In this document: positions 10,778 through 64,000 of the stretch, in pieces
Numbering within the stretch: the stretch's first letter is position 1
How the letters are laid out: every line of letters begins with the position of its first letter
From: a virus
Virus record (IMG/VR): IMGVR_UViG_3300042398_001156
Location: 1-64,000 of that record
Direction: 5' to 3' (one strand)
Length of the DNA stretch: 64,000 nucleotides
Position numbers and translations under genes: made by a program
Notes under the pieces: generated by a model
Told to the model about the DNA's origin: nothing
Database searches by the model: none
The model's input: the letters and a program-made list of their open reading frames with translations, nothing else

Positions 10778-11202
10778 ACTATTTCTCCTTTCTCTTCAAG
10801 TTCTTTAATGTGTTCATTATGTTTAATAATTAAATCACCTAAGTCTTTTTCTAAGGTTAATATTTTTAATTCAAGATCATGAATATACTTTTCAAAATCA
10901 GGGCGAACAGGCTTAGTACCCGTCAGCTGGTATTTATTATACGCTAATTCTCCTTGATATATGTGAATAATTTTTTGGTTATCATCAATTAACTTAACAG
11001 TAAAGTAAATAACTTTTTCTAAAATATTAGGTAGTTCAATGACAATATGGTTTCCTTTATATTGTTTTTCTTCAATAAACAAAACAGGATGTAAGTGTTC
11101 AGTATTAGGTTCAAACACATAGTGAATAGAAGTTTCCTTAATTAATTCAGGAACTTTCATAAGCATAACTTCTACTTTTTGATTGGCTAGTTTTAAAATC
11201 AT
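10774..11202 (-). CDS. Small structural-cluster protein (142 aa)
   Basis: The first 100 residues look beta-rich (alternating hydrophobic residues, IHYVFEPNTEHLHPVLF), and the last 40 form a charged helix with heptad spacing (LELKILTLEKDLGDLI). This domain order recurs in small phage minor-tail proteins. It overlaps both neighbours by four bases (ATGA-type coupling). No function can be assigned. Confidence 0.75.
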   Translation of the reverse strand: MILKLANQKVEVMLMKVPELIKETSIHYVFEPNTEHLHPVLFIEEKQYKGNHIVIELPNILEKVIYFTVKLIDDNQKIIHIYQGELAYNKYQLTGTKPVRPDFEKYIHDLELKILTLEKDLGDLIIKHNEHIKELEEKGEIV

Positions 11203-14200: not shown

Positions 14201-15350
14201 GTTTATCAGCGTTTCCTAAACTTGTACTGTTACTTCTATCAGAATCTAATAAAACAGTACCTGGACCATTAGGTTGAGTATTATCAACGGATGGAGTGTA
14301 TCTAAGCCAAGGACTGGACATAATAGTATCCCCTACTTCATCACCTATTTCTTTACCAGTATTAAATATTTCAAAACGATAAGCCCATTTATCAGATATG
14401 TTAGGAGTGTTATTTAAATCCAAATACGCAGGGTTTAAAACAAAGTAAGGTTTAATATTGTAATTAACATTAGGAAGAATAAAGTTAGTAACATACTGAT
14501 CGTTGTCATCATAAGTATAAATAAAGTTTCCTAACGTGCTAACTACACCTCCTTCAACCGGACGTGTTTGTTCTGTATATAATGTTTGAAATACGTTAGG
14601 AATAATAGATTTAGACACAGCTAAATTACGTTCAGTAGGAGCAAGTGTTGGATGCTCAAACATGTAAGGCAATCCTTCAACAACTAAAGTATCTGCAGCA
14701 CCTTCACTTGTTTGGTTTTGACGGTAACGAAGTTGAAGAATAAAATTAAAAGGTGTCTGTCCATTAACACCTGTATTTAATGTGACCTTTACAAGAGCGC
14801 GACTAATACCATTTTCATCATAAATGTGTTCAATCTTAGTATCTTCAATAGGAGTAATTTTATTTATGAATTGTGTAATTGTATTAGCTAGTGTAGTAGT
14901 ATTTCTATAAGCAGCAACATAACTTACTTGTGGAATTAGCACTTGCGTAAATAAATAATTCCAATCATAGTTAGCTATTTTAGAAATAATAGGTAAGTAA
15001 TAGTTAGTTATCTTATCATTGTACCCAGATATTTCTGCAATATATGCAGTGTTGTTATTCAGATCAAAAAGAATATATTGCCCTATTGTATTGTCTTTAT
15101 AAATAATAGTTTTATTACTTAATGAAATATGTTTATTAAAGTCTGGGCTACCTTCAATAGTATTTTTTAATGTTGTTGTTAAATATCCTTCACGCGGTTC
15201 TACAGATTGACCTGTATCAGATACATCAAAGTTTACCATGTGTTTAAACAATCCTTCGTTTAAAGGATCGGTGGTTGCGACAATTCCTAGATATCTAGTG
15301 TTGTCGTAATACGATTTTTCAGGAAACCCCTGTACCGCTTTTCTAGCCAT
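11199..15350 (-). CDS. Tail nozzle / tail tubular protein B-like (1383 aa)
   Basis: A very large beta-rich protein starting MARKAVQGFPEKSYYDNTRYLG, directly after the adaptor gene. T7 gp12-type nozzle proteins occupy that position, and the segments 'LLVWNKNVLFISEEGKFYWF' and the 'FTTQHLYAVYRVE' region are propeller-like. It is much longer than T7 gp12 (about 790 residues). The extra length includes two homologous insertions at about residues 570-690 and 767-880, which share FTSNxxxGT...YYRW...G patterns. The propeller comparison is inference. The first codons overlap the adaptor stop. Confidence 0.75.
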   Translation of the reverse strand: MARKAVQGFPEKSYYDNTRYLGIVATTDPLNEGLFKHMVNFDVSDTGQSVEPREGYLTTTLKNTIEGSPDFNKHISLSNKTIIYKDNTIGQYILFDLNNNTAYIAEISGYNDKITNYYLPIISKIANYDWNYLFTQVLIPQVSYVAAYRNTTTLANTITQFINKITPIEDTKIEHIYDENGISRALVKVTLNTGVNGQTPFNFILQLRYRQNQTSEGAADTLVVEGLPYMFEHPTLAPTERNLAVSKSIIPNVFQTLYTEQTRPVEGGVVSTLGNFIYTYDDNDQYVTNFILPNVNYNIKPYFVLNPAYLDLNNTPNISDKWAYRFEIFNTGKEIGDEVGDTIMSSPWLRYTPSVDNTQPNGPGTVLLDSDRSNSTSLGNADKQTNHYKGARYLIYVVSKNLNRTFSSKSVSSEGLVTQEFPSRNSNGTYKTGTGQESFTAITNRNNSWQSAINNIIDYKTLIEVIDGLSSNAFFYLYDIQTEVSTGRYETFDKLMQSSVNNDISDFEKMYHTFSKETQEDEYDFLLTGSELIAEIKRLNIFKTRDGVVFHLLPYAGNDTYVETNAINEFTSNSAFGTQAPYYAATESTIVEGGQTLVVLTGIEVNDIPLNTIVQVQSTGKMYQKIIQTQPELKAVWSELISYNPSVKPGTNTWGPLNSSNQGTTFKLNSLYLDERNNRYYRWTAASGYLGQLFAINNPGGTTEYYRFVFASLNYFNTPQDYLVRQNTFYFNDFNFNKFNWDTLKWEIGTDLTTLKTPVGSSFSTFTSNAVYGTAQPPWYASGTPAVLINDSNPTRYTITNAAENATIQAGTGTFYRQRKSPSGNEWEAISGTAFPANFVNNTIYRDLRTNFYYRWNNPTGLVGRFTPVSLNVPNLVSAGFFEKGINIIFYMRPYQESEYSGKNYQERQTLKAVWNATSLRQTVNLVYAQDAFSVTYIDKVLINEPLQIQTSNSLTVFEDSRLLVWNKNVLFISEEGKFYWFKERNRVEFAEEIVKVLQYKTIILVFTTQHLYAVYRVETITTQLNTTTNQIEQNVTGVAWLKQIVLYNLLVNKKYADVIQIFNQMVLFYSEDGQLFMIRPSNTIDSETRFSIQFLNKAANDILDHYDQYMNERLASYVSSMRVKKDEIKIKALVSINFIKIFYYVPGVITYILNYDVLNNRYYAYDTLTFTDVFDKRFIESGDLLITQTNSKLFFTVPFVEYNVRDNHVDLSFTNNFKKEGINCLIDTGNMNLNNHLFKRFRDLHVTFKNLNANNVLFNLETMIDEIVAKPFYNQQLEVIDSNNISYYVTVSKADNKDLIELVDVNMISNTATDVVKYSLTNNLFENNNMLMDFSDYSSSKLLTHRTSILGLGKVFRLKLQFISKGLYKLQNFGIIYKERRV

Positions 15351-46874: not shown

Positions 46875-46985
46875 CTAACTAAACTTTTTATTGGGGTAGT
46901 CGGGTAAGACAATCTATAAACCTTATGGGCTAAAGATTGTAACGTGGGTTCAACTCCCACCTACTCCACCAAAAAGTTTAGTTAG
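46875..46985. repeat. 15-bp inverted repeat around the tRNA-like element
   Basis: CTAACTAAACTTTTT at 46875-46889 and AAAAAGTTTAGTTAG at 46971-46985 are perfect reverse complements. The second arm begins exactly at the terminal A of the CCA. Together with the acceptor stem they extend a helix of about 22 pairs with a small mismatch. Confidence 0.9.
46893..46971 (+). tRNA. tRNA-like element with encoded CCA, anticodon not assignable
   Basis: A 7-bp acceptor stem GGGGTAG/CTACTCC (one G-T pair) is present, with a perfect T-arm GTGGG-TTCAACT-CCCAC, a discriminator A and CCA. The D-arm is very short (TCGGGTAAGA, with only GTC/GAC overlapping the acceptor). The next stem CAATC/GATTG closes a 20-base loop, not 7. 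No canonical anticodon loop can be placed. It may be a degenerate tRNA, a tRNA with a small insertion, or a tRNA mimic like the tRNA end of tmRNA. Confidence 0.55.
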
Positions 46986-47088: not shown

Positions 47089-50000
47089 TTATTTTAATAT
47101 CATAGCTTGTGATTGCCTGTATCGTACGTACTGTCTCCATTGAATGTTCTTAACTAAACGATATGGGTTAGTAGTAGGTCTACGCATACGTCCAAACTTA
47201 TTAAACCAATCTCTGTATATGTTTTCATATTTAGCCCAACGGCCATTACGTCCGTAACGATATCTACGCGGTGTATACTTTTCATAATTTTGAACAGTAT
47301 AAACTAAAGGTATTGTAGTTACAGGAGTATAAGGTTGTCTAGAAACAAATGGTTTAAGTTTAGATTGTTGTAAATTTTCTCTCATAGGTAATGCATTAAG
47401 TACTCTAGTTATTGGTCCTGCAATAGCAAGCTGTCTAATGCTTTGCATAACATCTCTTGTTTCTAAAAATTTAGCAATACCTTTTAATAAAGGCCTTTGT
47501 CTTCCCACTAAAGCTGCACTAGGATCACTTAAAATATTTTGAACATCATATAAACCTAATCCAATACGCAACCCAAAATTTTTACTAACACGTATCCAAC
47601 CACTTTGCATTTCTAATAATTCAAATTCACTATACTGTCCTTCTTCATCTGCGTATTGACCATAAACACCATCGATAACGTCGCTTAATAAAACAACAAT
47701 ACGTGGGTCCGTAATACGATCAATCCAGTTCTTAATAGAACGAACAGGGAATGATAAGTATGGAATGTCAGCAAGTAATTGCATTTCTAAAGGACTACGT
47801 AAGCCATAATTAAAGAAACGTTTAAGAGAATTATTAACAGATTCTTGGAAATTGTAACCACGTAACTGTCTATCAAGTAAGTAACCTGCAATACGACCTA
47901 CGTTTTCTGTATCAGTATTTAAGTCTTCATAAAAAAACTTATAACCAGCTTTTGTAATTCTTAATAATTTACCAAACAAAGTTTTATTAGAAGTACCAGT
48001 ACGCTGTTCTTCTATCTCGTTATACACTTCTTTAAATGATCGTGTAGAAAAATCATTAGCATCTAAAGCTACGCGTTGACTTACAAGATCTCTTAAGTAA
48101 GCAAAACTTTCTTGACGATACGTATCAATCTGTGCATTCGTTTGCATAAAGGCACTGATTTCAAATAAGATATTTTTTAAGTCATTATAATCAGCATTAT
48201 AAATAGGGTTACCATCTACATCTTTATACTTAGTATATTTTTTCAAACGTTTTTCAATACGTGCCCTATAAATATTACCTTTATCTTCTCCAAATTTTAA
48301 GTTGTCATATAAAGTAAAGTATTCTGCAAAGCGTATATCTAATAAAAAGTTAACAGAATCACGTATGCTTGTACGATTTAATATAGCTAACACACCATCT
48401 TTATTTTTTAATTGGTAAGTAGTATCATTTGATACTTTACTTAAATCTTCAATAGACTTAACACCAACAACGTCTTCTAATAAAAATTTTAATACACTGT
48501 CTAAATCTTTTTGGTATACTAAAGCATTATTTTCTAAACGATATTTAATTCTATTTTTTAACTCATCTTGTTTTAATGATTGAGCACCTTCAACGTAACC
48601 ATTAATTCTATATCTAATATTTAAAAAGTTTTGTATAACATCTAATACTTGTTCTTTAGTTATTGCAGTTTTATTTAATAGTAATTTATTTAATTTATCA
48701 TATGATGATTTTACTTCTAATAAAGTAAGAATACGTTCTTCAGATATATCTTGATACATATTATACACATCAAAAGTTAAACCCATAATACGTATAATTT
48801 CTTTATTGTTTTTTAATGTGCCATATATATCAAAGTCTTTATAAATTTCACTGTATAACTGTAACCAAGTATCTAACATGTTACGCATAATAAAACCATA
48901 ATTAAAACGCATTAATAACTTTTCAAGATATTGTAACTGTCCTAACCAAGTTGATAATGGACCTGTAAATTTAAATGGTTTATAAGCAGTTTCATAAGAA
49001 GACATTAAGTTATCAATAGTAACAAGACCTATGTTAAGTACTTCACCTTGCGCTAGTTTATCTTCAAGCAATTTTAAAAGTCCTTTTAATTCTTTCCAAT
49101 TTTTAATGTTTATTTCTTTTAATGTAGGTGATATATCAGATCCTAAATCAATACCATTTAAATCAACGGATGTATATTCTTTACCTTTAAATATAATTTT
49201 ATTAATAGGTGTTTCAAAAGTATAAGACTTTTTAATAGGAGCATTTAATTCTTTAACATAATCAATAATTTCTTGGAAAGATTTAAATTTAATATCTTTA
49301 GAATGTTTACGTCTTCCCAAAAACTTATCCCATCTTGATTTATTTTCCCAAGTAGGATCATCTTTAACAAATAAATCACCAACTTTTTTAGCGAGTCCTT
49401 CAGTATTATAAGCATCTTTTTGTACAACTAAACGAATAAAGTCTCTATTAGATACTAAGTATTCATAGAATTCTTTTACATCATATACACGTTTAGTTGT
49501 TTTATTACCATTGCCATCTAGTAAAACAATATCTTTTTTAAAAATAGAAGCAGCGCTAATTAAAGGATAGATAAGTTTATCCATATTCATTATGTTAGTA
49601 TTTTTAAAACGATTGATATCAGTACTAGTTAATGTAGGTGTGTCACCAAAATATCTTGGAACACCATCTTTAATCATTTCAATTGTTTCACCTTCAGGTG
49701 TGTGTAATAAAAAGATACCGCTTGTAAAATTACGAGCAAATGATTTGCTTAATGCACCCATTTGAATTTCTCGTTTCTTTTCTAATAATTCTTTTAAACG
49801 ATTCTTAAAATACTTTAACGAATCTTTTAAATCTAATTTTTCTATTTGCTCAATAGATAAAATAATATCTTCTTGTTCTTTTTTTGATGTAACAAGTTTA
49901 CCCGCAAGTTGTTTTAATTTGCTTTGGTTAATATACAATTCATCGTTGTTTTCTTTTAAAGATATTTGCGCTGTGCGTATTTCTCTTACTAAATTTTCAA

Positions 50001-53000
50001 TTTTATAAAATGCTAATTCGTTACTAACGAGTCTACTTATTTGGTCGTTAACACTTTCTTTAGAACGGTTGTTATAAGATTTTTCCTTTTCATTTTTTAA
50101 TGATTTAAATTCTTTAAATGAATCTGTTATTTGTTCTATTAATTCTTCAATAGTAATAGGATCTTTTAGTACATCTAAATTTTCATCTTTTAAAAACTGA
50201 CTAACAGATTCAGTTTCTAAATCAGAAGCTTTCGAAATACTTGCAAGTGCTTCATTGTAATCATTCCCATAAGGATTACTTAATTTACTTGCAATAATAT
50301 GTAAGTTATCTTTTGTTGCACGTGTGCTTGTACTATTCTTAACTGTATTAATACGTTGAGATGTTTGCCCTTCTTCTCCAATTGTAACGTACTCTACATC
50401 AACTTCTTTAGATCCTAAAAAGAAATCTTTAGCGTGTTGATATTTAGATGGTAATAACTCTCTTATGTATATACGTTGTTTATAACCCAAAGATTCTATA
50501 ATAGTTTTATAAAGAAAATAACTGTCAGCTAATAAACGAATTTCTTTCATATCTAATTTAGCATTACTATCTGAAGTAACTGCATATCTTGCTTCTATTT
50601 CTTTAAAGGTTCCGTAAGCCATATTAAAGATACGGAATAAACGGAAGCCAACAATACGTAAAGAAACTAATCTTCCTAAAAAATTATTAACTGAATCTTG
50701 TTGGCCATTAATTGTAATAGTTTTATCTAAAGCTTTTTCTAAATCTTTTTCTTGATTAAATATTTTTGAAACTTCAACAATTATATTTAAGTACTGATTA
50801 TAAACTGAGTCTGGTACGTAAATGTCACCGAACATTTCTTTTTTAGAGTATTCATTTATTAATAAATTTGCGGCGTTTAATGCGCTTGCTTCTGATCTAT
50901 AGCTACCTTGTAATTGTGTACTTTTAATTTCAATACGTTTTTCTTTTAAAGCTTTTAACTCTTTATCTTCTATTAATAATTCTTCCATTTCAAAAGTATC
51001 TTTATCCATACCAATAGCAATTGCATTATCGTGGTCATCATCAACACCAAGTGTAATGTCTCTTATACCTACTTTGTTAGCACTTGCTAATACACGGTTT
51101 TTAAACGCACGTAAATATTCACTTACAAGCATACGAATAGGTCCATGTTTAGCAATACCAATAATGTTATTAGCTTCTATAGATTGAGTACCTATAGTAC
51201 CACGATCAACAATAGATTGATTTAAATAATTAGAGGCGTGTCTTTGTATTACGTTTTCTAATTTTTCTTTAGTTTTCTTTTTAGCTTTAGGATTTATAGC
51301 TTTTTTAAATTCACGAATAGCATCTTCGTTTCTTGAAAAATAAAATACATATAAGTATTGTTCATCTACTTCGTCAAATTTATCTACAACAATACCGTTC
51401 TTTTGATAGCCTTTATACTTTTTAATAAACTCTAAATAGTGTGGGTTTAATGAAGTTGCATTTTTATAGAACGTATCAAAGTGTCTTACTACAGCATCAA
51501 CTTTATTAGGACCACTCATTACTTCCGCAAATGAAGTTAATTCTTTAACAACTAAAGCAGCAGCATATAATTTTTTATATAAGAAAACAAGTACATCTTC
51601 TGCATCTTGTTTAAAATAATCTTTATGTTTAACTGCATCTACTGCATCTATATAAATTTTTGTTTCTGGGTTATACGCAACTTCTTTAAACCAACCGTTG
51701 TAAACTTGATCAGTAAAATTAGGTAACATTTGTTTAGCAAAATTATTAGCGTCTTTGTTAATTTTTTCTTTAAGATCTTCAAAACTTAATCCTGCTTCTT
51801 GATCTTTTAAAGCAGTTGAATATATTGTGTTTCTAAATGTACCCAATACTTTTTCAAATGTTAACGTTAATGAATCTACAGAAACAATATTTCTTAAAGG
51901 ATCTTTAAAACTATTCCAAACATTACCTGTTTGATCTCTATTAATATTTGGGAATATGCTTAACGTAGATTTAGAAGTTTGAATTTTTCTTACACCACCG
52001 AATATAAGAATACCGACTTTAGATCCTTGGAAACGTGTAACCGTTTCATTACGTCCAACACTGTATAATTTTCTAAAGAATACTTTTTTTATTATTTCAG
52101 CGTTAGCTTTTTCTTTTCGGTTTCTAATAATTTCATCTACGCCCGTTTTAATAATATATTCTTTATCTTTAACTGATAAATGTTTTTCTAAAACTTCACC
52201 ATTAACAACATTAAAATCTTTACGGCTAACATATTGTGTTAAATCATATTTTTTAGCATCAATAATTTTTTGGAATAAATAAGAACGTGCAGCAATATTG
52301 AAATATCTTTTATCTTCTAATGCTTTTTTAACTGCAGCTGGATCTTTGTAGTCTTTTAATTCAAAGTCAGGCGCTGTGTTTAAGTTAAAAAGTTTTCTTA
52401 TTGCAACGTTTAAAAATTCTTTTTGTTCAGTTTCAGTCCAGTCTAAAGTTTCTGGTATAACAAGATTGTTAATATCTTTTTGAATACCTTCGTATAAAGA
52501 ACCATATAATTCTGACCATTTATATGTTGTTCGTATTTTTTCAAAAACGGATTTACCTACAGAAGTATATTCATAACCAATGTTTTGAATACGTTTATTG
52601 GTTTTAACATCAGGTATTAATTCTTTACGTATTTTTTCTAAGTAGCCTTCTACATATCTTCTTTCTTTTTTAATTGGGTCCCAAGTAAAGTACCCTTCAT
52701 CGTAATAAGATTCTTTAGTGGCATCATCTCGATCAAAACGTCCATCAATAAATTGTTGTTGGCTTAAAGCAATCATACCAATAGTATCACCATCGTTATC
52801 AGCACCCATCATTTTGTACATATATGGGTTAGCTTCAATAGCTGCGTGGTCGTGGTAACCTATAATTTTTAAAGTAGGTGTAGAGTTAGCATCTTGGATA
52901 GGCCACCGTGCTGTTAGTACCCAACCAAATTTACGCCCTAACTTATTCTTATAAAAGCTAATAGTATTGTTTTTATTAACAGTGTATAAAATATTTTCAA

Positions 53001-56000
53001 CACCGTTAATACTGTCATTAGTCATGCCTTGTTTATGTAAATGAATAATAAATGCTTCTAGTTCTTCTTTGTTTTTTAAACTTATTTCGTAATTTAATCC
53101 TGTATCTTTGACATTAATACCACTAAAATTTTGTTTCTTTGCAGTGTAATTAAAAGCGTTAATAAGTTTTAACCAGGTGGTTTCGTCAAGTTTTTCTAGT
53201 TGTAACCAGTCTTTCTTTTTACTTAAAGTTTCCCAAGAGTCTCTAGAAGTTCGTAAATTACCTAAACTTAAATCAATGTTGGCAAGTAATTGTTGTCTAA
53301 CACCAGGGTGTTTACGATATAAATATGTATAGATAGCACCTGAGTCAGATGTTAAAAATTCTTGAGCACGATTCCGTGAAGCTAAATTAATTTCTTTTAA
53401 TTTAATATCAAACCATGATTTATCTTTTGCGTTGCTTTCAAGACGCATGTTAAAGAACATCATGTACTCTTGTGCGTTATCAATTAAAGGTGTTTCTGAT
53501 CTTGCTTTAATATTATCTACGGTTTTTTTAATATCGTAATTGCCATTACTTAATTTAATAGCATAAGCTTCAAGGAACTTTTCAATGCCATAGCTTTGAA
53601 TTTCTGAGTAAATACTTATTTCTTTTCTAAAGTCTTGATCTAATAAAACTTTAAAGTCTACACCTTTCATACCTAAAATTGCAACAAAAGAAGGCGTTAC
53701 AGGTACACCGCCTTCAACGTTACCTTTTATATCACGATTAAATATTGCTAACTCAGGGTTACTGTTAAGCCTTGCGTTTACAGACATCTTTTCTGCGGTG
53801 TGATCAGCATCAGCAATCACATAGATTTCACCGCGTTGTATGTCTAAACCTTTAAAGTTATCAATTACAACATCACCTTTGTCTGTAACACGTTCTATAG
53901 TAATGTCTTCTGTAATAACATCATAAGTAAGATCACTAAATATTTTTACTTTATTGACAGAGTCTTCGCCAAATAAATCTAATAGAATATTATAATAATC
54001 TTCACCAGAATCAAGGATAATTTTTCCTTCTTTAATAACAAATAAATCTTTTAATTCTTTGTCTTTAGACGCAAGTATACGTAAGGCACGTTCAGTTAAA
54101 CCATATTTTTTAATAAACGCTTTATTTAAAATAGCAGATGTTTTATTAGGATTATCTAATAATTCTTTACCACGTTTTTGTAACTCAGAATTAACTAAAT
54201 ATTTTCTAATACTATTCATCGTTTGTTCTAGTACAGCACCCCCAGCACCACGTTGTTGTACCGAAGATTTATTAGCAATAATACTAACACCAAACTTTTC
54301 ACGTATCCCATCTTCAAAACGAATAGCACCTTTAAATCCCCACATGCCTAACCAAATTTTCCAGCCTTCATTAGCACCTAAAATTTTAGCTACTTTTCTA
54401 TCTATAATAAGTGCGTCTTCATAAGCCGCAGGCATATCCATAAAGCCTATTTCTAAATTCATACCTATCTTGTGAAATATGTTTCGTTTATAAAATTCAA
54501 ATTGTTTTTCTGTCAATTGATTAGGAGTAAACGTATTAATAAGTGTGCCATTTTCTGCTCTTCGTTCTAATAAATCAGTTAATAAATCACCCGTAGCAGG
54601 GTTATCTTTAATAGCTTGTTCAAAATATAATTCTAAAAGCTCTTCAAATTTTACAGATCTATTTAACTTGTCTTCAAAACTGTAGATGTTATTAATTAAA
54701 CCATACGGTGTATACTCTAAATATTGTTTATTGTAAGGTAAAATAATACGAGCAGGATTTGTGTTAAGTGTATGTGGCATATCTACGTTAGTAGGTAAAT
54801 ATATAGGTACAGATTTACCGGAACTTCCTTCTGCAGATTTTTCTAAATCAAGCAAGACTCCAATCTTGCTGGCACCCTCACTGGTCCAATCTATAACCAT
54901 GTTTGCACTATAAGTAGAAGGTACTAATAACAAGTATTTACTTGGGTCATTGCTTACAAATCTAGAAAGTGTACGATCTGCTAATCCTTGGTAAATTGTT
55001 TTAGTGTTATTTATTTTTTCTTTTTTACGTGCATAGTTATGAACATCTAAAAATCTAAAGAATCTATTTTTTAGTACTTGAGTCATGTTAATAACTTCTA
55101 AAACAGTATCAGGTATAGCATCATCAAAGACTTCGTCTTTTAAAAACTTTTCTGTAAGAACCTTACCACCTCTAACACCTTCATCATTTAATTCAAATAA
55201 GCCAAGCTTTCTGTATTTTTCATAATGTGATAACACACGTTTAATACTTTCAAAGCTGTGGTCTACACCATCTTCTAAATACACAATATTTTGTGGTAGT
55301 TTAGTATGACCAAGTTTTACTTGACCCTTAGCATCTTTGTAATTAAAGAAACGTTTTAACCAATCGTTAATATCTTCATCTTCTTTAGGTCCTTGTAGTT
55401 TAATTGTTTTAACTTCTAATGTTTTACCAGCTTCAATATAAGTGTAATTAAATTCAAAGGATACTTTACCACCTTTTAAACTAAACTTATAACTATTAAC
55501 AACGCCATTAAAATTATCAAATAAATTAACGATAAAAAAGTTTTCTGTAGGTCTTCTTATTAAAGCAACATCTTCTTTAATAACCAGTGCTTTACGATCT
55601 ACACCTTCATGTACATCTTTATACACACGGGTTACGTTAGGAATGTTTAATTGTTGAATAAACTCTAACCCTTCTTTTTGATTAGCTAAATTTTCTAATG
55701 AATCTAAACGTTCTTCTTTTGCTAGGTTTTCAATGTTTACTTTACCGCCATTTAAAATAGTATAAATGTGATCAAATTCCATTTCTTTTTTAATTGCATC
55801 AAGTTTCTTAACTCTGCTTAAAACTTCTACAAACTTATTAGTAACTGCTTCTGTGTTAACTTCTAAATCAGTTTGTTTTCTGTCAAATTTTAAACGGTTT
55901 AATAAATCAATATTGTTATTAACGTAATCTAATTCATCTTTAATAGCTAATGCAACAAGTGTACGCATGTTTAAAGTATCTATTTTTCCAACAAGATTAT

Positions 56001-59000
56001 CTTTTTCTTTTAATAAACTAAGTAATTTTGTCACACCTTTATTTTTACTAAACAATTCTACTAAGTTAGCAAATCGTTTGTCTTGAATAATATTTGTGTT
56101 TTCTTTTAATTTTAATATATTAAAAAATTTATTTAAGATATTAATTAAATCAGCATCATCAATTTTTAAATCAGGAATTTTTTTAAAGTCAGCACCTAGT
56201 ACTTCAGGTCCAATGTTATTCCAAGTCTCTACTAATTCTTGAAGCTTAACAATTGCTAAAGCTTTAAACTCTTCAGTCTTTTGATTTATTATATCTTCTA
56301 TTTTTTTATCAAACGTAGAACTTGCTGCAACTTTACCGTTGTTTAAAAGAGTAATCATAGTAGTAAGTTCTTGACTACGTTTATTATAAGCGTCTAATAT
56401 TTTATTTTTTTCTGCAGCATCCTTGATGCTTATAATAGTAGAATCAATAAATGTAGCTAAAAGTTTTTTAACTTCAGTAGATTCAATATCTATTTTTCCA
56501 TTAGGACTTTCTTCAATTATGCTCATTAACTTTTCTAAAGCTTGCACACTGTTGTTTAATTCTAATTGTAAGTTATCTAATTCTATTTTTAATAGACTAT
56601 AGTTTGTTATATTCGTAGAACTATAACCATATTTATCTTCATTAAGTTTTTCTTTTAGAACTTTATTAATTCTATACGTTGTATTTTTTGTAATCTCTTG
56701 TAACTTTTTAGAGGTTTTTCTAAGAATTTCAAAAAGAGTTTCTTTTTTAACAACACCATCTTCTACTTTCTTTGTTAAATCTTCAATTGTTTTTTCTACT
56801 TCTTTATATTCTTTTAATGTTTTTGCTTGGTCAGTAGCTAACTCTGTTAGTTTTTCTTTATGAGACTTTCTACCAGAAGTTTCAATAAAAGCAATAAATC
56901 TAAGTACTTGTTGTACTTGTAAATCAATTGAAGTATTTGCTTCGTTATAATTAAAGTCTGTTACTTGATCATCAGCGATGTTTAATTCTTCTTTAACAGC
57001 ATCTGTAATTAACTGTCTTACGCTTGTTAATTTAGGATCACCAGCAATACTATCTACACCTTGTTGTATCTGTGCAGTAAATTCTTCTTCCATTATTTTT
57101 AATAACTCATCTGTGTAAGCTAAAATTTTAGCATCTTCTCGTATGTTATGTCTTAACATCCAACCTTCATTAAAATATTTAAATATAGCATTTCTAATAT
57201 CTAAACGTTTAATAGGATCTTTTTCATTAATGTAGTCAAGTACTAAACTTTTTATAGTATTATATTGTGATTTTTCTCCTGTAAATAAACTTACTTTACG
57301 ACCTTGATTTGTTACTATACTTAAACGACTTTCAACATTTTTAATAACATCTTGTATTAAAATGTTTTCTATTTCACGATCAAACTTACCTATAGCTGTT
57401 AAGTCAGCTTTGTTTAAAGGTATACCTTTTTTTAATTTTTGATTAATTCTAGTTATTTCTTTTTTATTAGCAGCAATTAAACGTGCAGCATCTCCACGTG
57501 TAACAGCGTCGTTAACACTAGCGTACTCCATGCGTTCTCTTATAGCTTTAGGATCGTTATCTCTTATTAATTGGTAATATAAGTTTACTTTTAAAGTACT
57601 AGCAAGACGTTGAATAAATTGATTGTAGTTAGGAAAGTCAAAATCTTCACCGTTATGTGCAATAATAGGTACATTTTTAGGCGCTGCGTTTACTTCGTTT
57701 ATAAAAAGACGGGTAACTTCTATGTCATTACGCTGACCTATTACATACTTAATAGTAGTATCTATACGTTTATCTAATTCATCTTTTATTGTTTTATTTA
57801 AAAGATTATAGTACTCATCTTGATCTGTATTTCTCCAAACTTTTTTAGTTTTAGTTGGGTCAGCATTAACCCAAGCTTTAAAGCCTTCCATTTCTTTTAC
57901 ATACATACGTCTTTGTTGTTCATAAAACCGTGTTAATTCAGGAGACAATTTAGTTTCTACTTTACCGTTTACAAGTTCTTCTGTTTTACCTTCAATAAAT
58001 ATTTGATTTGTCATAAATTGATTTAACACATCAAAAGATAATTTACCTTTAACGTTTTTAAATTTTAATATAGTTAATTGATATGGAATTTTATTACCGT
58101 TACTATCTGTTACAGTTTCCATGTCTAAAATAATAAACTCTTCAGGTAAGTTTTGACCTGCTTTTTTCATCTGGGCCATATAATTAAAAGCAGTAATAAC
58201 ACCATCTGTTATACCATTATGTAGCCCTATATTTTTTTCACCGTCAGTATTAGTATCTTTAATTAGTTGTACTAATTTATCATAACCACCTATGTAATAT
58301 TGACCGGCATCTTTAATAATTTTTTCAATAACCTCAACACTAGTCTGTTCAACATTAATTTTATTTAAGTTTCTATACGTATCTAAATTACTATTACCAT
58401 AAGGCTTTTCTTCTTTTCTAGCACTTATAAGGTTATCATAACGATTCTGTATACCCTTCTTATCGCTTTCAGCTTTTTCTAATAACTCATTTAATTTAGC
58501 AATACGTGCAGGTACTTCTGTAGAGTAATCTTTTAATGCTTCTTTTTCTTTTTTTAAAGCAACAATTTTATCTGTTAGTTCTTTTCTTTGCGCAATTAAA
58601 TCATCGTGTTCTTTTTTATATAAAGTAGTATCATTTGATAATATGTAAGACGCAAGATACTCATCTGATATTTCTTTATTTGTTTCAGCACTTACTTTTT
58701 TTGCAACACGTTTTAACACAGTAGTAGGATCTTGATTACCTTCTGTTTTTAAAACATTAATGACATTATTACTATTTTTAATATTAACTTTATTTTTTGT
58801 TATACGACTTTTTAATTCTATTAACGCTTTTATAGTCTGTTCTAAATCATAATTCTTTTGATTAGTAATTAAATTATTTATAGTTATTTCAAATTCACCT
58901 TTAAGTTCTTTTAATTGGTCTTTACTATATTTATCTTTAGTAGTTTCTACAACAGTAGATTTATTAATTGCGTCTTCTACTTTTTTAAGTTCATCTAATA

Positions 59001-62000
59001 TATATTCTTTTTGTTTAAATGAATTAATATCCATGTTGTCAAAAGGATATGATTTTAATTCTAATAATCTTTCTAATACTAATAAAACTTCTCTTGGTAT
59101 TTCTATAGTTGTAACGTTACTTCCTGTACCAACAACTTCAAAACCTTCTTGTATAGAAGGTTGAGCTACGCCTCTGTTTGCTTTTTTTCTTTTTTCTAAT
59201 TCTTTTTCGTCCGATTTAAAATCAGATTGTTTTACAAAATAAAGTTTTTCTGAGCTAACATAAGTTATTGGTATTTGTAAAGATGTTGACCAGCTACCAG
59301 TTGGTTCATCTCCACCACGTACATATAATCTTTCTGTACTACTATTAACTATGTTTTTTATTTTTGTTATAAACGTATTTAATTGATTTCTTACATAAGG
59401 ATTTTCAATTAAAAATTTAAGTATATCATCGTTTAATAAATTTCTTTTTTTCCAATCAATCTTACTGTATTCTTCTTCTTCTTTATTTAATGCTTCTCTA
59501 AACTTATCAAATAGTGGATGACTTTTTCCAAAGGCATCAAACTCTGCTTGGGTTTTGTCAGTGTTTGGTATTTCACGGCCACTATCTACCCAGTCTTTTT
59601 TTATTTGTTGATAAAAACTTTCTCTTAAATCTGAAGCTTCTTCTAATTTTTCAAACATTAAAACAATTTCTTTTTCGTAAGAAGTTATTTTACTTTCTAT
59701 TTCTTTTAAACCTTCTTCTTTTCCAAGTTTTTCTTTAACTTGTAAAACATTTAAGCTACTTTTTATTTTAAAAGAACTTAAATAATTGCTGTCTTCTTTA
59801 TTAATAGTAGCAATTAATTGTTTAGTTAGCGTTAATAATCCTTGAAGTGTAAATTTCTTTAAGTAAATAAGTTTGTTTAATTCTGTTTTGTAACGTTCTT
59901 TTGTTATATCTTTTTTATTAATTCCTAACTTATGTAAATCATAATTAATTTTAAGTTGCGCGTATGTTGCCCACAAAAATTTACGATATGAAAGCTCATT
60001 AGCTCTATCATGTTTTTTAAATGTAAATGTTTCTTTTTTATTTTTAACATCTTGTATAGCTTTATCAATAACAGTTTCATAATTATCAAAATCTTCCAGT
60101 CCAAAAGTATTAAAGTATTCATCTTGTGCTTGTGCTAAATAATTTTCTGCTTTATTTAAGTATTCACTTTGTGATTTTAAAAGAATATCCGTACTTTTTT
60201 TATCTAGTGTAAGTGAATCTTTTAAATCTTTTTGTTCTTTTGCAGCAATTTCTTTAGCAGCACCTTTAAAACTTCCATAGTAAGCTCTTTGAATTTTATT
60301 AACATGATATCTAGCGATAGCTAACTGTCTTCCTTTACGACTTAAACCATCTTCTGTATCACTAATAATTTTATCACCGTCTGTAAAATATTTATTAATG
60401 TTATCAATTCTATTTTCATTATTTTTAATAATGGATTCATAACCTTTTCTATAAGTACCCCAGGTCTTTTTTGAAACTTTAGAATCTTTTGGATCAACTC
60501 CATTAATTAAAGTTTTTTGAAGTGTATTAATTGTATTAATTTTATCTTCTGCATTTTTAATAAAGTTATTATAATCTTCGACTGTTTGTATATTAATACC
60601 TAATTCAATTAATGATTTAACATTATTTTCAAAAGTATCTTTTTTATATGTATTTCTAATTTTTGCAAATGCTTTATATTCTTTTGTAGATAACCACGTT
60701 TTTGCTTCAATTAAATCATCTCTTATTTTATCGTACAGTTCAAAAAACTTAACAGACTTTTTATTTTTAAATTTGTTTATTTTATCTTGGTTTTCTTTTT
60801 GAGCCTTTGTTAATAATTTTTCATTGAACTCTTCGTATTCTTTAATAAGCGAAGGTGTATTTTCATACACAGCAATTAAAATTTTTTCTTTTCTGTCTTT
60901 TGCTTCTTTATCAATAGTAGTTATTTCATTATTTAAAATAACTTGAGATGATTCTAAAATGTTTATTTGTGTTAATAATTCTAATTCTTTTTTATTTATA
61001 GCAGCAAGATCTGTATTACTAAAATTAAACATAGATTTTAAACTATCTAATCTATTTGTTAATGTTACAGCTTCTTCTTTTAATTTATTGACAGTATTAG
61101 TAATTAATTCCCAGCTTACAATTGTAGGTAATTTTTTAAAATCATAATCTTTATCTCCAGCTACACCTTCTTCTATAGTATCCCATAACAGTCTTTCCCC
61201 TTTATCAAGATTTAATTGACTGCTTAAAATTTTTGTAAGGTCATTAATATTTTGAATACGTTTAGTTACTTCACTTCTTTCCTTAGGAGTCATTGCTTCT
61301 AAAACAGCTTTAGGAAAAATAATATTAATAGCTTTTCTAATTGATCCTGCTGTTTCAATTTGATTAGCAAGGCTAGTTAACTTTGAAATATTATAACGTT
61401 GCTGTGCGTCTGATATAGTTTTTATTTGATCTTCAAGATAACGCAATCTAGTTTGTGCTTGTGCTTTTGTTTTATTGTCAAACTTATTGATAAGAATATA
61501 ACCCATAACTGCTTGTACAAACTCTGGGGTTACATCAAGTAAATGACGACGAGAATTAAAATAATTAACTATGTCTTCTACTTGTTGGTTTATACGTTTT
61601 AATTGTTCTGGATCATTTATAGAATCAACATATTTTTTAAAATCATTTTTATAAATAGTAATAAATTCTTTACGTTGAGATATATTATTAATAGCAATAG
61701 CTATTTCTAAAAAACGAACAAAGTTAATATCTTCTACTTCTGGTTTAATTAACTTTAATAGATTTGTATATCGTTGCATTAATGCCGTGTAATCAATATT
61801 TCTAGAAGGAACTTCATCAATATTTTTAGCGTACTGTTCACTTGTGTAATGAAAACTAATATCTCCTAAAGCTTGTTCAATTATTTTAGCAACAGTTGCA
61901 TTATAGTTTGGATTTGAATTAGGTATAAATATAACTTTAAAAGTATCACGCATTTGTTGTAATATAATTTTGCTAATATTATTAGGTGTAGTTAAAATAT

Positions 62001-64000
62001 ATTTACGTTCAGGTGTAACATTTGTATCAGGCACATCTTCATTTTTTAAAACAATAGTATCTAATCTATTGTTTATATCTTCTACATATGTACCTGCGTT
62101 AATTAAATAACTGACAGAATTATAAATATCTCTTAAGATACTATTTTCAAATACATCTTTTTTTGGATTTGTTTCAAACGTTCCCGTAGCTTCTAAAGCT
62201 TTAACACGTTTAATGTTTTTACGTATTTCTTTATCTCTAAATCTATCAACAGCGTCACTCCAAGACCATTTAGCGCCTTCAAATTTTTGATTAATATAAA
62301 TAGATTTAATCATATTTAATAATGAAACAAAGACAAAAGCATTATCATTAGAACTAAATTTATTTATTAGTACTATCATTAAGTCATCAACAGTTTTGTA
62401 CACTTCAAATAATCTTACAATTTCTTCATAGTCAGTAAATCCTATTTCAGCAAAAAATTGTCTAATTTTATTAACGCGTGTTATTTCATCGTGTTCAATT
62501 TCTTTACCATAAGCATGTGTGTATCCTAATATAAATTTTTTAAAATATGACATAAAATCTTTACTATCATTTAGTAAAGGTATTTTCATTAAACTATATA
62601 ACTCGTAAGGACTTTCAAATTTATCTTCTGATTTTTTACTTCTAAAGCTAGCCATTACTTTATAAACATTATCATCAATAGGAAGATTTAAATCACCTGT
62701 AATAGTTCTAAATTTCTCAACTTCTATATTATAACTTTTTAGGTACTCTTCAAAAATTTCAACGGTAGTAACTTGATTTTTTCTTTCACGATAAAAAATT
62801 AAATTAATAAACATTTCAGTTATATTACGTATTTGTGGGTCTTGAATATTATCTAAGTATTCATTAACGCTTGCATATTTTACTTGAGGTATAGTGGTGT
62901 TTTGGTCTATTACAGCTACTTTATTAGTAGCACCAAACATCGTATCTTCTAATTTATCTATGATACTTTCGATTGTTTTATTAATATCTAAATTATTAAA
63001 AGATAATCCTGGAACAAGTGCAATTAACTGCACTATAATTTCAGACATACTTGTAACTATTTTTCCGCCTTCTGCGTTAGGGTCGTCTAATGTGTATGTT
63101 CTAAATTCTTCTTTAGGTTTTTTATACCAAGCTGCCACATCTTCTTTATTTTTTTTAATTAAATCAGCTAGTATTGAATTGATAGTATCTTTAGTATTGG
63201 GGTCTGCTGCTAAAGCTTTTTCATACAACATAAAAGCTTCACCACCTAAACGAACAGTAGGGGTTTTTCTTGCGTTTGTACTAATCTTTGTTAAGTAAGT
63301 ACTTATAGTTTGCTTCAATAACATTTCTTGTAAACGTAATACTTCATCCTTATTTATACTATCTAAGTTATTATTAAGTTTTAAATCAATAAACATCTTT
63401 CCAAAGTTATATAACTTTTCATAAGAAGAAGATATATTTTGAAATTCATCTTCAGGCAAAGCTTTAATACCCGCTACAAATTGTTCTAAAGTAATGCCTG
63501 GTTGACCTAGATACGTGGCAAATGATCCGGCTACGGATATTAATAGTCTTTTAATATCTAAAAAGTCTTCATCTTTTAATGTATTAAAAACTGTATCTTG
63601 ATCAATATTAAAAAACGATAAAGCGTTTATTAAATCTTCGTTTTTAAAATCTCCGTATTCAAAAATATTTTTATTATTCTTAATAACATAAAGTAAGTTA
63701 GACCAGTTTAAATTAATAGAAGTGCCTTTAATTCTTGCGTTACTTTCTTTAACTTTTTCTTTATAAAATTTACGTGTTTTTCTAACGCTTCTAGCTATTT
63801 GTGTTTCTAAAGTAACACCATCGGTTTGTTTAAGATTAAACATTTCTTTTAATCTTTGTATACCATAAAGTCTTTCTTCTACACGGTTAACAGTATTAAA
63901 CATTGTTAGATTTTCATTATACTTATTATTATCATTAATAAAGTTTGTATTAGCTTCTCTTAAAATTTTTATTCTAGCCGATATTTCTTGTGCTGTAATA
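47089..64000 (-). CDS. Giant virion RNA polymerase-like protein, N-terminus beyond window (at least 5636 aa)
   Basis: The frame stays open from 47089 to the right edge, 32 codons past the first ATG at 63903, which has no ribosome site, so the true start is outside the window. Numbering from that ATG, residues 1 to about 1900 are helical and coiled-coil-rich. D1927, E1929, D2089, H2252 and D2257 form a DEDDh exonuclease signature. YEDALII (3161) and GMWGFKG (3186) resemble the beta-subunit barrel. GADNDGD (3702-3706) fits the DxDGD catalytic motif of the beta-prime barrel. The C-terminal 900 residues are basic and helical, like other large ejected proteins. This matches the single-chain two-barrel RNA polymerases of crAss-like phages. 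It should be packaged and ejected to transcribe early genes. Confidence 0.85.
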   Translation of the reverse strand, partial: ITAQEISARIKILREANTNFINDNNKYNENLTMFNTVNRVEERLYGIQRLKEMFNLKQTDGVTLETQIARSVRKTRKFYKEKVKESNARIKGTSINLNWSNLLYVIKNNKNIFEYGDFKNEDLINALSFFNIDQDTVFNTLKDEDFLDIKRLLISVAGSFATYLGQPGITLEQFVAGIKALPEDEFQNISSSYEKLYNFGKMFIDLKLNNNLDSINKDEVLRLQEMLLKQTISTYLTKISTNARKTPTVRLGGEAFMLYEKALAADPNTKDTINSILADLIKKNKEDVAAWYKKPKEEFRTYTLDDPNAEGGKIVTSMSEIIVQLIALVPGLSFNNLDINKTIESIIDKLEDTMFGATNKVAVIDQNTTIPQVKYASVNEYLDNIQDPQIRNITEMFINLIFYRERKNQVTTVEIFEEYLKSYNIEVEKFRTITGDLNLPIDDNVYKVMASFRSKKSEDKFESPYELYSLMKIPLLNDSKDFMSYFKKFILGYTHAYGKEIEHDEITRVNKIRQFFAEIGFTDYEEIVRLFEVYKTVDDLMIVLINKFSSNDNAFVFVSLLNMIKSIYINQKFEGAKWSWSDAVDRFRDKEIRKNIKRVKALEATGTFETNPKKDVFENSILRDIYNSVSYLINAGTYVEDINNRLDTIVLKNEDVPDTNVTPERKYILTTPNNISKIILQQMRDTFKVIFIPNSNPNYNATVAKIIEQALGDISFHYTSEQYAKNIDEVPSRNIDYTALMQRYTNLLKLIKPEVEDINFVRFLEIAIAINNISQRKEFITIYKNDFKKYVDSINDPEQLKRINQQVEDIVNYFNSRRHLLDVTPEFVQAVMGYILINKFDNKTKAQAQTRLRYLEDQIKTISDAQQRYNISKLTSLANQIETAGSIRKAINIIFPKAVLEAMTPKERSEVTKRIQNINDLTKILSSQLNLDKGERLLWDTIEEGVAGDKDYDFKKLPTIVSWELITNTVNKLKEEAVTLTNRLDSLKSMFNFSNTDLAAINKKELELLTQINILESSQVILNNEITTIDKEAKDRKEKILIAVYENTPSLIKEYEEFNEKLLTKAQKENQDKINKFKNKKSVKFFELYDKIRDDLIEAKTWLSTKEYKAFAKIRNTYKKDTFENNVKSLIELGINIQTVEDYNNFIKNAEDKINTINTLQKTLINGVDPKDSKVSKKTWGTYRKGYESIIKNNENRIDNINKYFTDGDKIISDTEDGLSRKGRQLAIARYHVNKIQRAYYGSFKGAAKEIAAKEQKDLKDSLTLDKKSTDILLKSQSEYLNKAENYLAQAQDEYFNTFGLEDFDNYETVIDKAIQDVKNKKETFTFKKHDRANELSYRKFLWATYAQLKINYDLHKLGINKKDITKERYKTELNKLIYLKKFTLQGLLTLTKQLIATINKEDSNYLSSFKIKSSLNVLQVKEKLGKEEGLKEIESKITSYEKEIVLMFEKLEEASDLRESFYQQIKKDWVDSGREIPNTDKTQAEFDAFGKSHPLFDKFREALNKEEEEYSKIDWKKRNLLNDDILKFLIENPYVRNQLNTFITKIKNIVNSSTERLYVRGGDEPTGSWSTSLQIPITYVSSEKLYFVKQSDFKSDEKELEKRKKANRGVAQPSIQEGFEVVGTGSNVTTIEIPREVLLVLERLLELKSYPFDNMDINSFKQKEYILDELKKVEDAINKSTVVETTKDKYSKDQLKELKGEFEITINNLITNQKNYDLEQTIKALIELKSRITKNKVNIKNSNNVINVLKTEGNQDPTTVLKRVAKKVSAETNKEISDEYLASYILSNDTTLYKKEHDDLIAQRKELTDKIVALKKEKEALKDYSTEVPARIAKLNELLEKAESDKKGIQNRYDNLISARKEEKPYGNSNLDTYRNLNKINVEQTSVEVIEKIIKDAGQYYIGGYDKLVQLIKDTNTDGEKNIGLHNGITDGVITAFNYMAQMKKAGQNLPEEFIILDMETVTDSNGNKIPYQLTILKFKNVKGKLSFDVLNQFMTNQIFIEGKTEELVNGKVETKLSPELTRFYEQQRRMYVKEMEGFKAWVNADPTKTKKVWRNTDQDEYYNLLNKTIKDELDKRIDTTIKYVIGQRNDIEVTRLFINEVNAAPKNVPIIAHNGEDFDFPNYNQFIQRLASTLKVNLYYQLIRDNDPKAIRERMEYASVNDAVTRGDAARLIAANKKEITRINQKLKKGIPLNKADLTAIGKFDREIENILIQDVIKNVESRLSIVTNQGRKVSLFTGEKSQYNTIKSLVLDYINEKDPIKRLDIRNAIFKYFNEGWMLRHNIREDAKILAYTDELLKIMEEEFTAQIQQGVDSIAGDPKLTSVRQLITDAVKEELNIADDQVTDFNYNEANTSIDLQVQQVLRFIAFIETSGRKSHKEKLTELATDQAKTLKEYKEVEKTIEDLTKKVEDGVVKKETLFEILRKTSKKLQEITKNTTYRINKVLKEKLNEDKYGYSSTNITNYSLLKIELDNLQLELNNSVQALEKLMSIIEESPNGKIDIESTEVKKLLATFIDSTIISIKDAAEKNKILDAYNKRSQELTTMITLLNNGKVAASSTFDKKIEDIINQKTEEFKALAIVKLQELVETWNNIGPEVLGADFKKIPDLKIDDADLINILNKFFNILKLKENTNIIQDKRFANLVELFSKNKGVTKLLSLLKEKDNLVGKIDTLNMRTLVALAIKDELDYVNNNIDLLNRLKFDRKQTDLEVNTEAVTNKFVEVLSRVKKLDAIKKEMEFDHIYTILNGGKVNIENLAKEERLDSLENLANQKEGLEFIQQLNIPNVTRVYKDVHEGVDRKALVIKEDVALIRRPTENFFIVNLFDNFNGVVNSYKFSLKGGKVSFEFNYTYIEAGKTLEVKTIKLQGPKEDEDINDWLKRFFNYKDAKGQVKLGHTKLPQNIVYLEDGVDHSFESIKRVLSHYEKYRKLGLFELNDEGVRGGKVLTEKFLKDEVFDDAIPDTVLEVINMTQVLKNRFFRFLDVHNYARKKEKINNTKTIYQGLADRTLSRFVSNDPSKYLLLVPSTYSANMVIDWTSEGASKIGVLLDLEKSAEGSSGKSVPIYLPTNVDMPHTLNTNPARIILPYNKQYLEYTPYGLINNIYSFEDKLNRSVKFEELLELYFEQAIKDNPATGDLLTDLLERRAENGTLINTFTPNQLTEKQFEFYKRNIFHKIGMNLEIGFMDMPAAYEDALIIDRKVAKILGANEGWKIWLGMWGFKGAIRFEDGIREKFGVSIIANKSSVQQRGAGGAVLEQTMNSIRKYLVNSELQKRGKELLDNPNKTSAILNKAFIKKYGLTERALRILASKDKELKDLFVIKEGKIILDSGEDYYNILLDLFGEDSVNKVKIFSDLTYDVITEDITIERVTDKGDVVIDNFKGLDIQRGEIYVIADADHTAEKMSVNARLNSNPELAIFNRDIKGNVEGGVPVTPSFVAILGMKGVDFKVLLDQDFRKEISIYSEIQSYGIEKFLEAYAIKLSNGNYDIKKTVDNIKARSETPLIDNAQEYMMFFNMRLESNAKDKSWFDIKLKEINLASRNRAQEFLTSDSGAIYTYLYRKHPGVRQQLLANIDLSLGNLRTSRDSWETLSKKKDWLQLEKLDETTWLKLINAFNYTAKKQNFSGINVKDTGLNYEISLKNKEELEAFIIHLHKQGMTNDSINGVENILYTVNKNNTISFYKNKLGRKFGWVLTARWPIQDANSTPTLKIIGYHDHAAIEANPYMYKMMGADNDGDTIGMIALSQQQFIDGRFDRDDATKESYYDEGYFTWDPIKKERRYVEGYLEKIRKELIPDVKTNKRIQNIGYEYTSVGKSVFEKIRTTYKWSELYGSLYEGIQKDINNLVIPETLDWTETEQKEFLNVAIRKLFNLNTAPDFELKDYKDPAAVKKALEDKRYFNIAARSYLFQKIIDAKKYDLTQYVSRKDFNVVNGEVLEKHLSVKDKEYIIKTGVDEIIRNRKEKANAEIIKKVFFRKLYSVGRNETVTRFQGSKVGILIFGGVRKIQTSKSTLSIFPNINRDQTGNVWNSFKDPLRNIVSVDSLTLTFEKVLGTFRNTIYSTALKDQEAGLSFEDLKEKINKDANNFAKQMLPNFTDQVYNGWFKEVAYNPETKIYIDAVDAVKHKDYFKQDAEDVLVFLYKKLYAAALVVKELTSFAEVMSGPNKVDAVVRHFDTFYKNATSLNPHYLEFIKKYKGYQKNGIVVDKFDEVDEQYLYVFYFSRNEDAIREFKKAINPKAKKKTKEKLENVIQRHASNYLNQSIVDRGTIGTQSIEANNIIGIAKHGPIRMLVSEYLRAFKNRVLASANKVGIRDITLGVDDDHDNAIAIGMDKDTFEMEELLIEDKELKALKEKRIEIKSTQLQGSYRSEASALNAANLLINEYSKKEMFGDIYVPDSVYNQYLNIIVEVSKIFNQEKDLEKALDKTITINGQQDSVNNFLGRLVSLRIVGFRLFRIFNMAYGTFKEIEARYAVTSDSNAKLDMKEIRLLADSYFLYKTIIESLGYKQRIYIRELLPSKYQHAKDFFLGSKEVDVEYVTIGEEGQTSQRINTVKNSTSTRATKDNLHIIASKLSNPYGNDYNEALASISKASDLETESVSQFLKDENLDVLKDPITIEELIEQITDSFKEFKSLKNEKEKSYNNRSKESVNDQISRLVSNELAFYKIENLVREIRTAQISLKENNDELYINQSKLKQLAGKLVTSKKEQEDIILSIEQIEKLDLKDSLKYFKNRLKELLEKKREIQMGALSKSFARNFTSGIFLLHTPEGETIEMIKDGVPRYFGDTPTLTSTDINRFKNTNIMNMDKLIYPLISAASIFKKDIVLLDGNGNKTTKRVYDVKEFYEYLVSNRDFIRLVVQKDAYNTEGLAKKVGDLFVKDDPTWENKSRWDKFLGRRKHSKDIKFKSFQEIIDYVKELNAPIKKSYTFETPINKIIFKGKEYTSVDLNGIDLGSDISPTLKEINIKNWKELKGLLKLLEDKLAQGEVLNIGLVTIDNLMSSYETAYKPFKFTGPLSTWLGQLQYLEKLLMRFNYGFIMRNMLDTWLQLYSEIYKDFDIYGTLKNNKEIIRIMGLTFDVYNMYQDISEERILTLLEVKSSYDKLNKLLLNKTAITKEQVLDVIQNFLNIRYRINGYVEGAQSLKQDELKNRIKYRLENNALVYQKDLDSVLKFLLEDVVGVKSIEDLSKVSNDTTYQLKNKDGVLAILNRTSIRDSVNFLLDIRFAEYFTLYDNLKFGEDKGNIYRARIEKRLKKYTKYKDVDGNPIYNADYNDLKNILFEISAFMQTNAQIDTYRQESFAYLRDLVSQRVALDANDFSTRSFKEVYNEIEEQRTGTSNKTLFGKLLRITKAGYKFFYEDLNTDTENVGRIAGYLLDRQLRGYNFQESVNNSLKRFFNYGLRSPLEMQLLADIPYLSFPVRSIKNWIDRITDPRIVVLLSDVIDGVYGQYADEEGQYSEFELLEMQSGWIRVSKNFGLRIGLGLYDVQNILSDPSAALVGRQRPLLKGIAKFLETRDVMQSIRQLAIAGPITRVLNALPMRENLQQSKLKPFVSRQPYTPVTTIPLVYTVQNYEKYTPRRYRYGRNGRWAKYENIYRDWFNKFGRMRRPTTNPYRLVKNIQWRQYVRYRQSQAMILK

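Follow-up and report, generated by a model that had tools for sequence, protein, structure and literature searches.

A cysteine-free phage protein of 8,437 amino acids with RNA polymerase-like motifs as a probable virion RNA polymerase

The minus strand of the viral record IMGVR_UViG_3300042398_001156 contains an open reading frame that runs off the analysed window, which raises the questions of how far it extends, whether it is real and what a protein of this size would do for a phage. The window comprised bases 1-64000 of the 75,916-bp record. From 47089 to 63999 no stop codon was present in frame, and the translation began with ITAQEISARIKILREAN. A first-pass annotation had described a frame of at least 5636 codons leaving the window and had concluded that the protein was longer than it appeared and among the largest of phages. 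The observation was confirmed, and it was understated. Past the window, the same frame remained open for 2,800 more codons and reached its ATG at record base 72402; a stop and start just beyond base 64000 were not found. The full gene comprised 8,437 codons and a TAA (25,314 bp) and encoded 8,437 amino acids with a mass of 969 kDa. It occupied 33% of the genome, one third of the 76-kb record. The largest predicted proteins in a survey of huge phages reached 7,694 amino acids (PMC7162821), and both conclusions of the first-pass annotation hold. The frame was already open under table 11, and an alternative genetic code was unnecessary. Chance was excluded as the origin of the long frame because the other five frames across the same stretch were full of stops (297-1,388), with a longest open run of at most 187 codons. 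The features are listed in Table 1.

Table 1. Positions of the features discussed in the text, in window coordinates unless marked as record coordinates.
Feature	Position	Strand	Basis or remark
Giant gene, 3' two thirds (codons 2802-8437 and stop)	47089..64000	-	Open frame, relatives
ATG at 63903, presumed first start in the first-pass annotation; internal codon 2834	63901..63903	-	
DnaQ/PolB-like 3'-5' exonuclease motifs I (D-x-E-T, residues 4760-4763) and II (AHNG..FDF, to residue 4923)	57637..58125	-	
Beta-like block: K-x-WLG-x(1-3)-GFKG (residues 6015-6025) and S-V-x-x-R-G-x-x-G-x-x-x-E (6047-6059)	54226..54360	-	
Beta'-like block: R.P.QD....P..K..G...N...Y.MMGAD[NT]DGD..GM	52663..52950	-	Five-sequence conservation
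Putative metal-binding DNDGD, residues 6535-6539	52786-52800	-	Motif
C-terminal block, residues 7780-8437, best conserved part	47092..49065	-	Alignment
tRNA/tmRNA-like element just 3' of the giant gene, before the converging replication genes	46893..46971	+	Rfam
Hairpin with T-run and TGNTATAAT before the giant gene	record 72403-72465		Conserved in five genomes
113-aa protein between major capsid protein and giant	record 72473-72814		Homologous to API480 gp9

Relatives were collected by scanning viral contigs with the central part of the giant protein, which gave the near-identical assembly G001 and the homologue G002, and with the terminase, which gave three further large records (G003, G004 and G005). 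The giant gene was unbroken in each genome, with 8,437 amino acids in the present record (G000), 8,038 in G002, 8,230 in G003, 7,903 in G004 and 7,862 in G005, and it took 32-34% of each of the five records. Counts over five giants refer to G000 and G002-G005; G001 was treated as an independent assembly of the same phage. It was 99.97% identical to the record across 56,083 bp without gaps and contained an ORF of identical length. The record ends overlapped by 149 bp at 99.3% identity and G001 read across the junction, so the genome is essentially complete. As the record is metagenomic, a frame held open by mis-assembly or concatenated contigs was considered. The independent assembly with the same ORF and the four different genomes with a gene of 7,862-8,230 amino acids and the same neighbours showed that the ORF is not a sequencing artefact; this explanation was refuted and retains a negligible chance.

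The N-terminus MALL[LYF]P was common to all relatives, which fixed the start at record base 72402. The location of the giant gene did not vary among the five genomes: it immediately followed a 113-aa gene, which in turn lies next to the major capsid gene. Between the 113-aa gene and the giant gene, all five contained a hairpin with a T-run, directly followed by an exact copy of the conserved element given in Table 1 and, approximately 10 nt downstream, by the ATG. The stem varied in sequence among the genomes, and the pairing was kept in each (z -4.4 in G000). No Shine-Dalgarno sequence was found before the giant ATG in the five genomes, compared with its presence at 59% of the longer ORFs. 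The arrangement looks like an extended -10 promoter that would yield a leaderless giant mRNA. The remark in the first-pass annotation that no ribosome site preceded the ATG at 63903 was true and irrelevant, since the real start lacks one as well. That annotation proposed no function; the RNA polymerase (RNAP) motifs, the lack of cysteine and the conservation of a start that looks leaderless were added in the present analysis. Two homologues of the 113-aa protein weakly matched residues 2310-2360 of crAss001 gp50 (E 0.004-0.04). On the other side, the tRNA/tmRNA-like element is a neighbour outside the giant protein. It scored 31.4 bits with the Rfam tRNA model and 38.5 bits with tmRNA ends (below the gathering threshold of 47), ARAGORN reported no tRNA there, and its 3' part was kept in G002, G003 and G005.

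Pairwise identity among the five giant proteins was 22-53%, and conservation was patchy, with poorly conserved linkers. Most other genes of these phages were approximately 50-98% identical, and the large terminase subunit (TerL) 81-94%. Between G000 and G002, dS was 1.1 in the giant gene, near saturation, compared with 0.41 in TerL and 0.09 in PolA, and dN/dS was approximately 0.43 compared with 0.06-0.08 in PolA and TerL. Rapid adaptive evolution as the origin of this divergence was rejected in favour of an exchange of old alleles, because silent sites in the giant gene approached saturation and those in PolA had hardly changed. In the last 150 bases of the gene (window 47089-47240), G000 grouped with G005 and G003 (91% identity to G005 and 72% to G002), while the remainder grouped with G002, which points to recombination at the end of the gene, probably with exchange of whole alleles. 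The simplest reading of these comparisons would be that old alleles were exchanged via recombination in the conserved ends, in addition to faster protein change.

Two blocks within residues 5850-6950 were among the best conserved parts of the giant interior and resembled RNAP motifs. In the beta'-like block, MMGAD[NT]DGD was invariant in all five proteins; in the two nearest homologues, it lies in a stretch of 25 residues without a single difference. This DxDGD motif suggests the metal-binding D-x-D-x-D loop of two-barrel RNAPs. The motifs K-x-WLG..GFKG and SVxxRGxxGxxxE of the beta-like block were likewise invariant in the five giants. When aligned with hhalign against the whole E. coli RpoC, the beta'-like block had its best place at 424-468 (NADFDGD), with a score that was reached by 8% of shuffles; the corresponding RpoC stretch begins with NRAPTLHRLG. 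The beta'-like block also landed on ADYDGD of P23-45 gp64 and on DFDGD of P23-45 gp96. The best place of the beta-like block in the whole E. coli RpoB was 1067-1116, with a score reached by 30% of shuffles, and this place includes the catalytic lysine and VPSRMNIGQILE (K1073...VPSRMNIGQILE). The beta-like block preceded the beta'-like block by 510-549 residues, and order and spacing were constant. The same order is found in single-chain two-barrel RNAPs such as phi14:2 gp66 and QDE-1. The hhalign scores being not significant, the RNAP assignment is based on motif, place, order and invariance and is held as a sequence-based prediction. In G003 (L030:6872-11056), the RNAP region of the giant protein was enlarged behind DxDGD by an insertion of at least approximately 190 residues, which was not present in the other four and which may be SLOG-like.

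Profile searches of the giant protein with Pfam, PHROGs and PDB gave nothing significant, RNAPs included. PF00623 also missed phi14:2 and crAss001, both of which have a virion RNAP, and the Pfam result is thus uninformative and no defining criterion for phage RNAPs. Alignment of the whole 1,101-residue block with phi14:2 gp66, P23-45 gp64 and N4 vRNAP using hhalign gave no usable alignment. For the N4 vRNAP with its T7-like core, the probability of the central block was 0.06%, calculated with a single-sequence template of low sensitivity.

Outside this region, the exonuclease-like part contained motifs I and II, and a motif III was not conserved in the five giants, which makes exonuclease activity uncertain. 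Profile matches of this region to PolB and TREX1 exonucleases were weak (E 0.08-0.2), and PF10108 matched in one member with E 0.024. The N-terminal block contained glycine-rich hydrophobic stretches at residues 385-500. At the other end, the last 100 residues were strongly basic (pI 10.4-10.9), and we propose that the basic C-terminal block may be a packaging or DNA-contact end. A search for the polyvalent protein domain LPD38 at the C-terminus gave no match, and the control was silent too. The C-terminal 2,637 residues had no significant tblastn match among GenBank phages.

Cysteine was absent from all 40,470 residues of the five giant proteins. In the same phages, late and virion proteins contained 36 cysteines in 34,321 residues (0.105%) and the remaining proteins 301 in 37,799 (0.80%); late proteins are generally low in cysteine. 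At the late-protein rate, approximately 42 cysteines were expected in the five giants, a count in which the sequences are related and not independent. At an identity down to 22%, drift alone would have brought cysteines into them. The giant frame contained no TGY triplet, compared with 100 and 505 in the other two frames of the same strand, so the missing cysteine does not result from codon composition.

The absence is shared with the virion RNAPs of N4 (0/3500), EE36phi1 (0/3785) and P23-45 (tape-measure RNAP, 0/5002). Within a small, hand-picked set of ejected proteins, T7 gp15 (0/747) and gp16 (0/1318), P22 gp7, gp20 and gp16, lambda gpH and the N4 66 kDa protein, a neighbour of vRNAP, also lacked cysteine. 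T5 pb2, which was checked last as a prediction of the rule, contained none either. Most of the non-ejected proteins checked in those phages contained it, with 11 residues in lambda J, 12 in T5 ltf, 8 in the P22 tailspike and 11 in the N4 160 kDa protein. The coat proteins of N4 and EE36phi1 had no cysteine although they stay outside. Exceptions among delivered proteins were T7 gp14 (196 aa) with one cysteine and crAss001 gp45/47/49/50 with 1-3 each. Together with the low cysteine content of the late proteins, they weigh against the virion RNAP reading. For N4-like vRNAPs, the absence was noted earlier and thought to aid membrane transit (PMC5795418). A general statement on ejected phage proteins was not found in the literature searched. 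We propose that cysteines are excluded because a chain that is threaded, crosses the envelope and refolds cannot risk disulphides or thiol damage.

The phage appears to belong to an undescribed lineage whose head genes resemble those of Paenibacillus podophages. TerL, portal, scaffold, major capsid protein (MCP) and the small gene after it were homologous to API480 and SV21 of Paenibacillus larvae, with E values of 7e-76 for TerL (32% identity), 1e-40 for the portal (25%) and 6e-22 for MCP, and the small gene is located between MCP and the giant gene. The genomes of API480 and SV21 differ in having 45 kb and no giant gene, and the largest API480 protein has 1,631 amino acids, unknown function and no cysteine. 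A search with TerL for relatives in bacterial genomes found none. Membership in Crassvirales was rejected. TerL, portal and MCP had no BLASTP similarity to crAss001, against which only PolA and weak short matches were obtained at E 0.05, and the Crassvirales transcription block consists of several separate large genes compared with one gene in the five genomes. API480 gp16 (L006:12564-17459; 1,631 aa), annotated as hypothetical and free of cysteine, is a candidate ejected protein.

Among known systems, gp96 of Thermus phage P23-45, a tape-measure-fused virion RNAP of 5,002 amino acids, is similar in being a giant single chain with DFDGD and no cysteine. Its RNAP is N-terminal, whereas that of the present giant is located approximately three quarters along the chain; gp96 serves as tape measure for a very long tail and is shorter (5,002 compared with 8,437 amino acids). 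The virion RNAP of P23-45 was recognised by such a DxDGD-type motif and afterwards confirmed (PMC10770324, which also compares single-chain two-barrel RNAPs). The vRNAP of the Schitoviridae phage N4 (3,500 amino acids) is likewise an ejected giant polymerase without cysteine, with a predicted membrane N-terminal part, a central RNAP and a large C-terminal part. Its gene is also the last of the late strand block and converges on the replication genes. It differs in having less than half the giant's length, and the low-sensitivity hhalign comparison with the central block gave no match. N4 vRNAP belongs to the T7-like single-subunit RNAP family. The RNAP cargo of Crassvirales (phi14:2 gp66, annotated gp077; crAss001 gp47/49/50) shares the two-barrel type, the D-x-D-x-D motif, packaging and a low cysteine content, and differs in being encoded by several separate genes instead of one; crAss001 carries gp47/49/50 as RNAP cargo (PMC10172136). 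The largest proteins of huge phages are of similarly extreme length. They occur in genomes above 200 kb and some are tentatively structural, whereas the giant is located in a genome of 76 kb.

Taken together, the giant protein is likely a single-chain, cysteine-free virion RNAP of approximately 0.9-0.97 MDa, which would be carried in the capsid and ejected into the host together with the DNA or before it. Its presence in the virion is suggested by position and composition. It would work like the virion RNAPs of N4, crAss-like phages and P23-45, and membership in any of these groups by homology is not claimed. The domain layout is best read as an RNAP joined with its delivery apparatus in a single polypeptide. 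The chain may unfold to pass portal and tail, and the glycine-rich hydrophobic block (residues ~385-500) may help to form or line a membrane passage. The central two-barrel RNAP (~residues 5850-6950) would then transcribe the first phage genes during DNA entry, the DnaQ-like domain may act on host or phage nucleic acid on entry, and, while the particle is being packaged, the basic C-terminus may keep the chain attached to the portal or to DNA.

The main alternative for the final form is polyprotein processing, in which a protease would cleave the 8,437-aa chain, so that the virion would contain the RNAP, the exonuclease and the pore as individual proteins. It concerns form and not function. 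The patchy conservation with its poorly conserved linkers would fit, as would crAss001, in which the same kind of cargo consists of five separate proteins (gp45-gp50) of together approximately 7,500 amino acids. However, neither Pfam nor PHROGs detected a protease domain in the giant, and N4 (3,500 aa) and P23-45 (5,002 aa) use a single chain; cleavage is considered rather unlikely. A virion structural or internal protein without polymerase activity, for example an ejection, pilot or tape-measure-like protein in which DxDGD is a coincidence or a calcium-binding site, is considered quite unlikely. The RNAP homology is not significant, and by our own estimate a chance DxDGD is expected in approximately one of ten proteins of such length and composition. 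This motif, however, lies in the 25-residue invariant stretch and is kept in all five proteins, and the two RNAP-type motifs align with the expected places of RpoB and RpoC and occur in the correct order. P23-45 also possesses a non-virion RNAP, gp64, which is likewise free of cysteine, so an enzyme made after infection and confined to the cytoplasm has a precedent. For the giant such a role is highly improbable in view of its size, the location of its gene in the late strand block beside that of the capsid protein, the lack of cysteine over approximately 8,000 residues and the hydrophobic N-terminal block.

With the virion RNAP reading, one probably delivered protein takes a third of a 76-kb genome. 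We tentatively suggest, as a broader interpretation that may well not hold in full, that this phage protein, longer than any we found reported, combines in one polypeptide all functions for delivery and take-over (membrane passage, nuclease, two-barrel RNAP and packaging end) that are elsewhere split over 3-5 proteins, and that it is the extreme case of a general rule by which proteins threaded out of particles are rid of cysteine regardless of fold. Such a rule can be checked across all phages and, if true, would allow ejected proteins of unknown phages to be recognised by their lack of cysteine. For N4 and crAss001, it has been stated as an open question how virion enzymes of giant size get through a channel that is narrower than their domains when folded, and a cysteine-free chain of 0.9 MDa in five genomes with identities down to 22% would serve as a natural experiment that tests the threading model strongly.

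Two further late proteins of the record, with 1,823 amino acids (window 990-6461) and 1,383 amino acids (11199-15350), were strongly variable in length among the relatives, with 1,297-1,823 and 1,333-1,912 amino acids, respectively.
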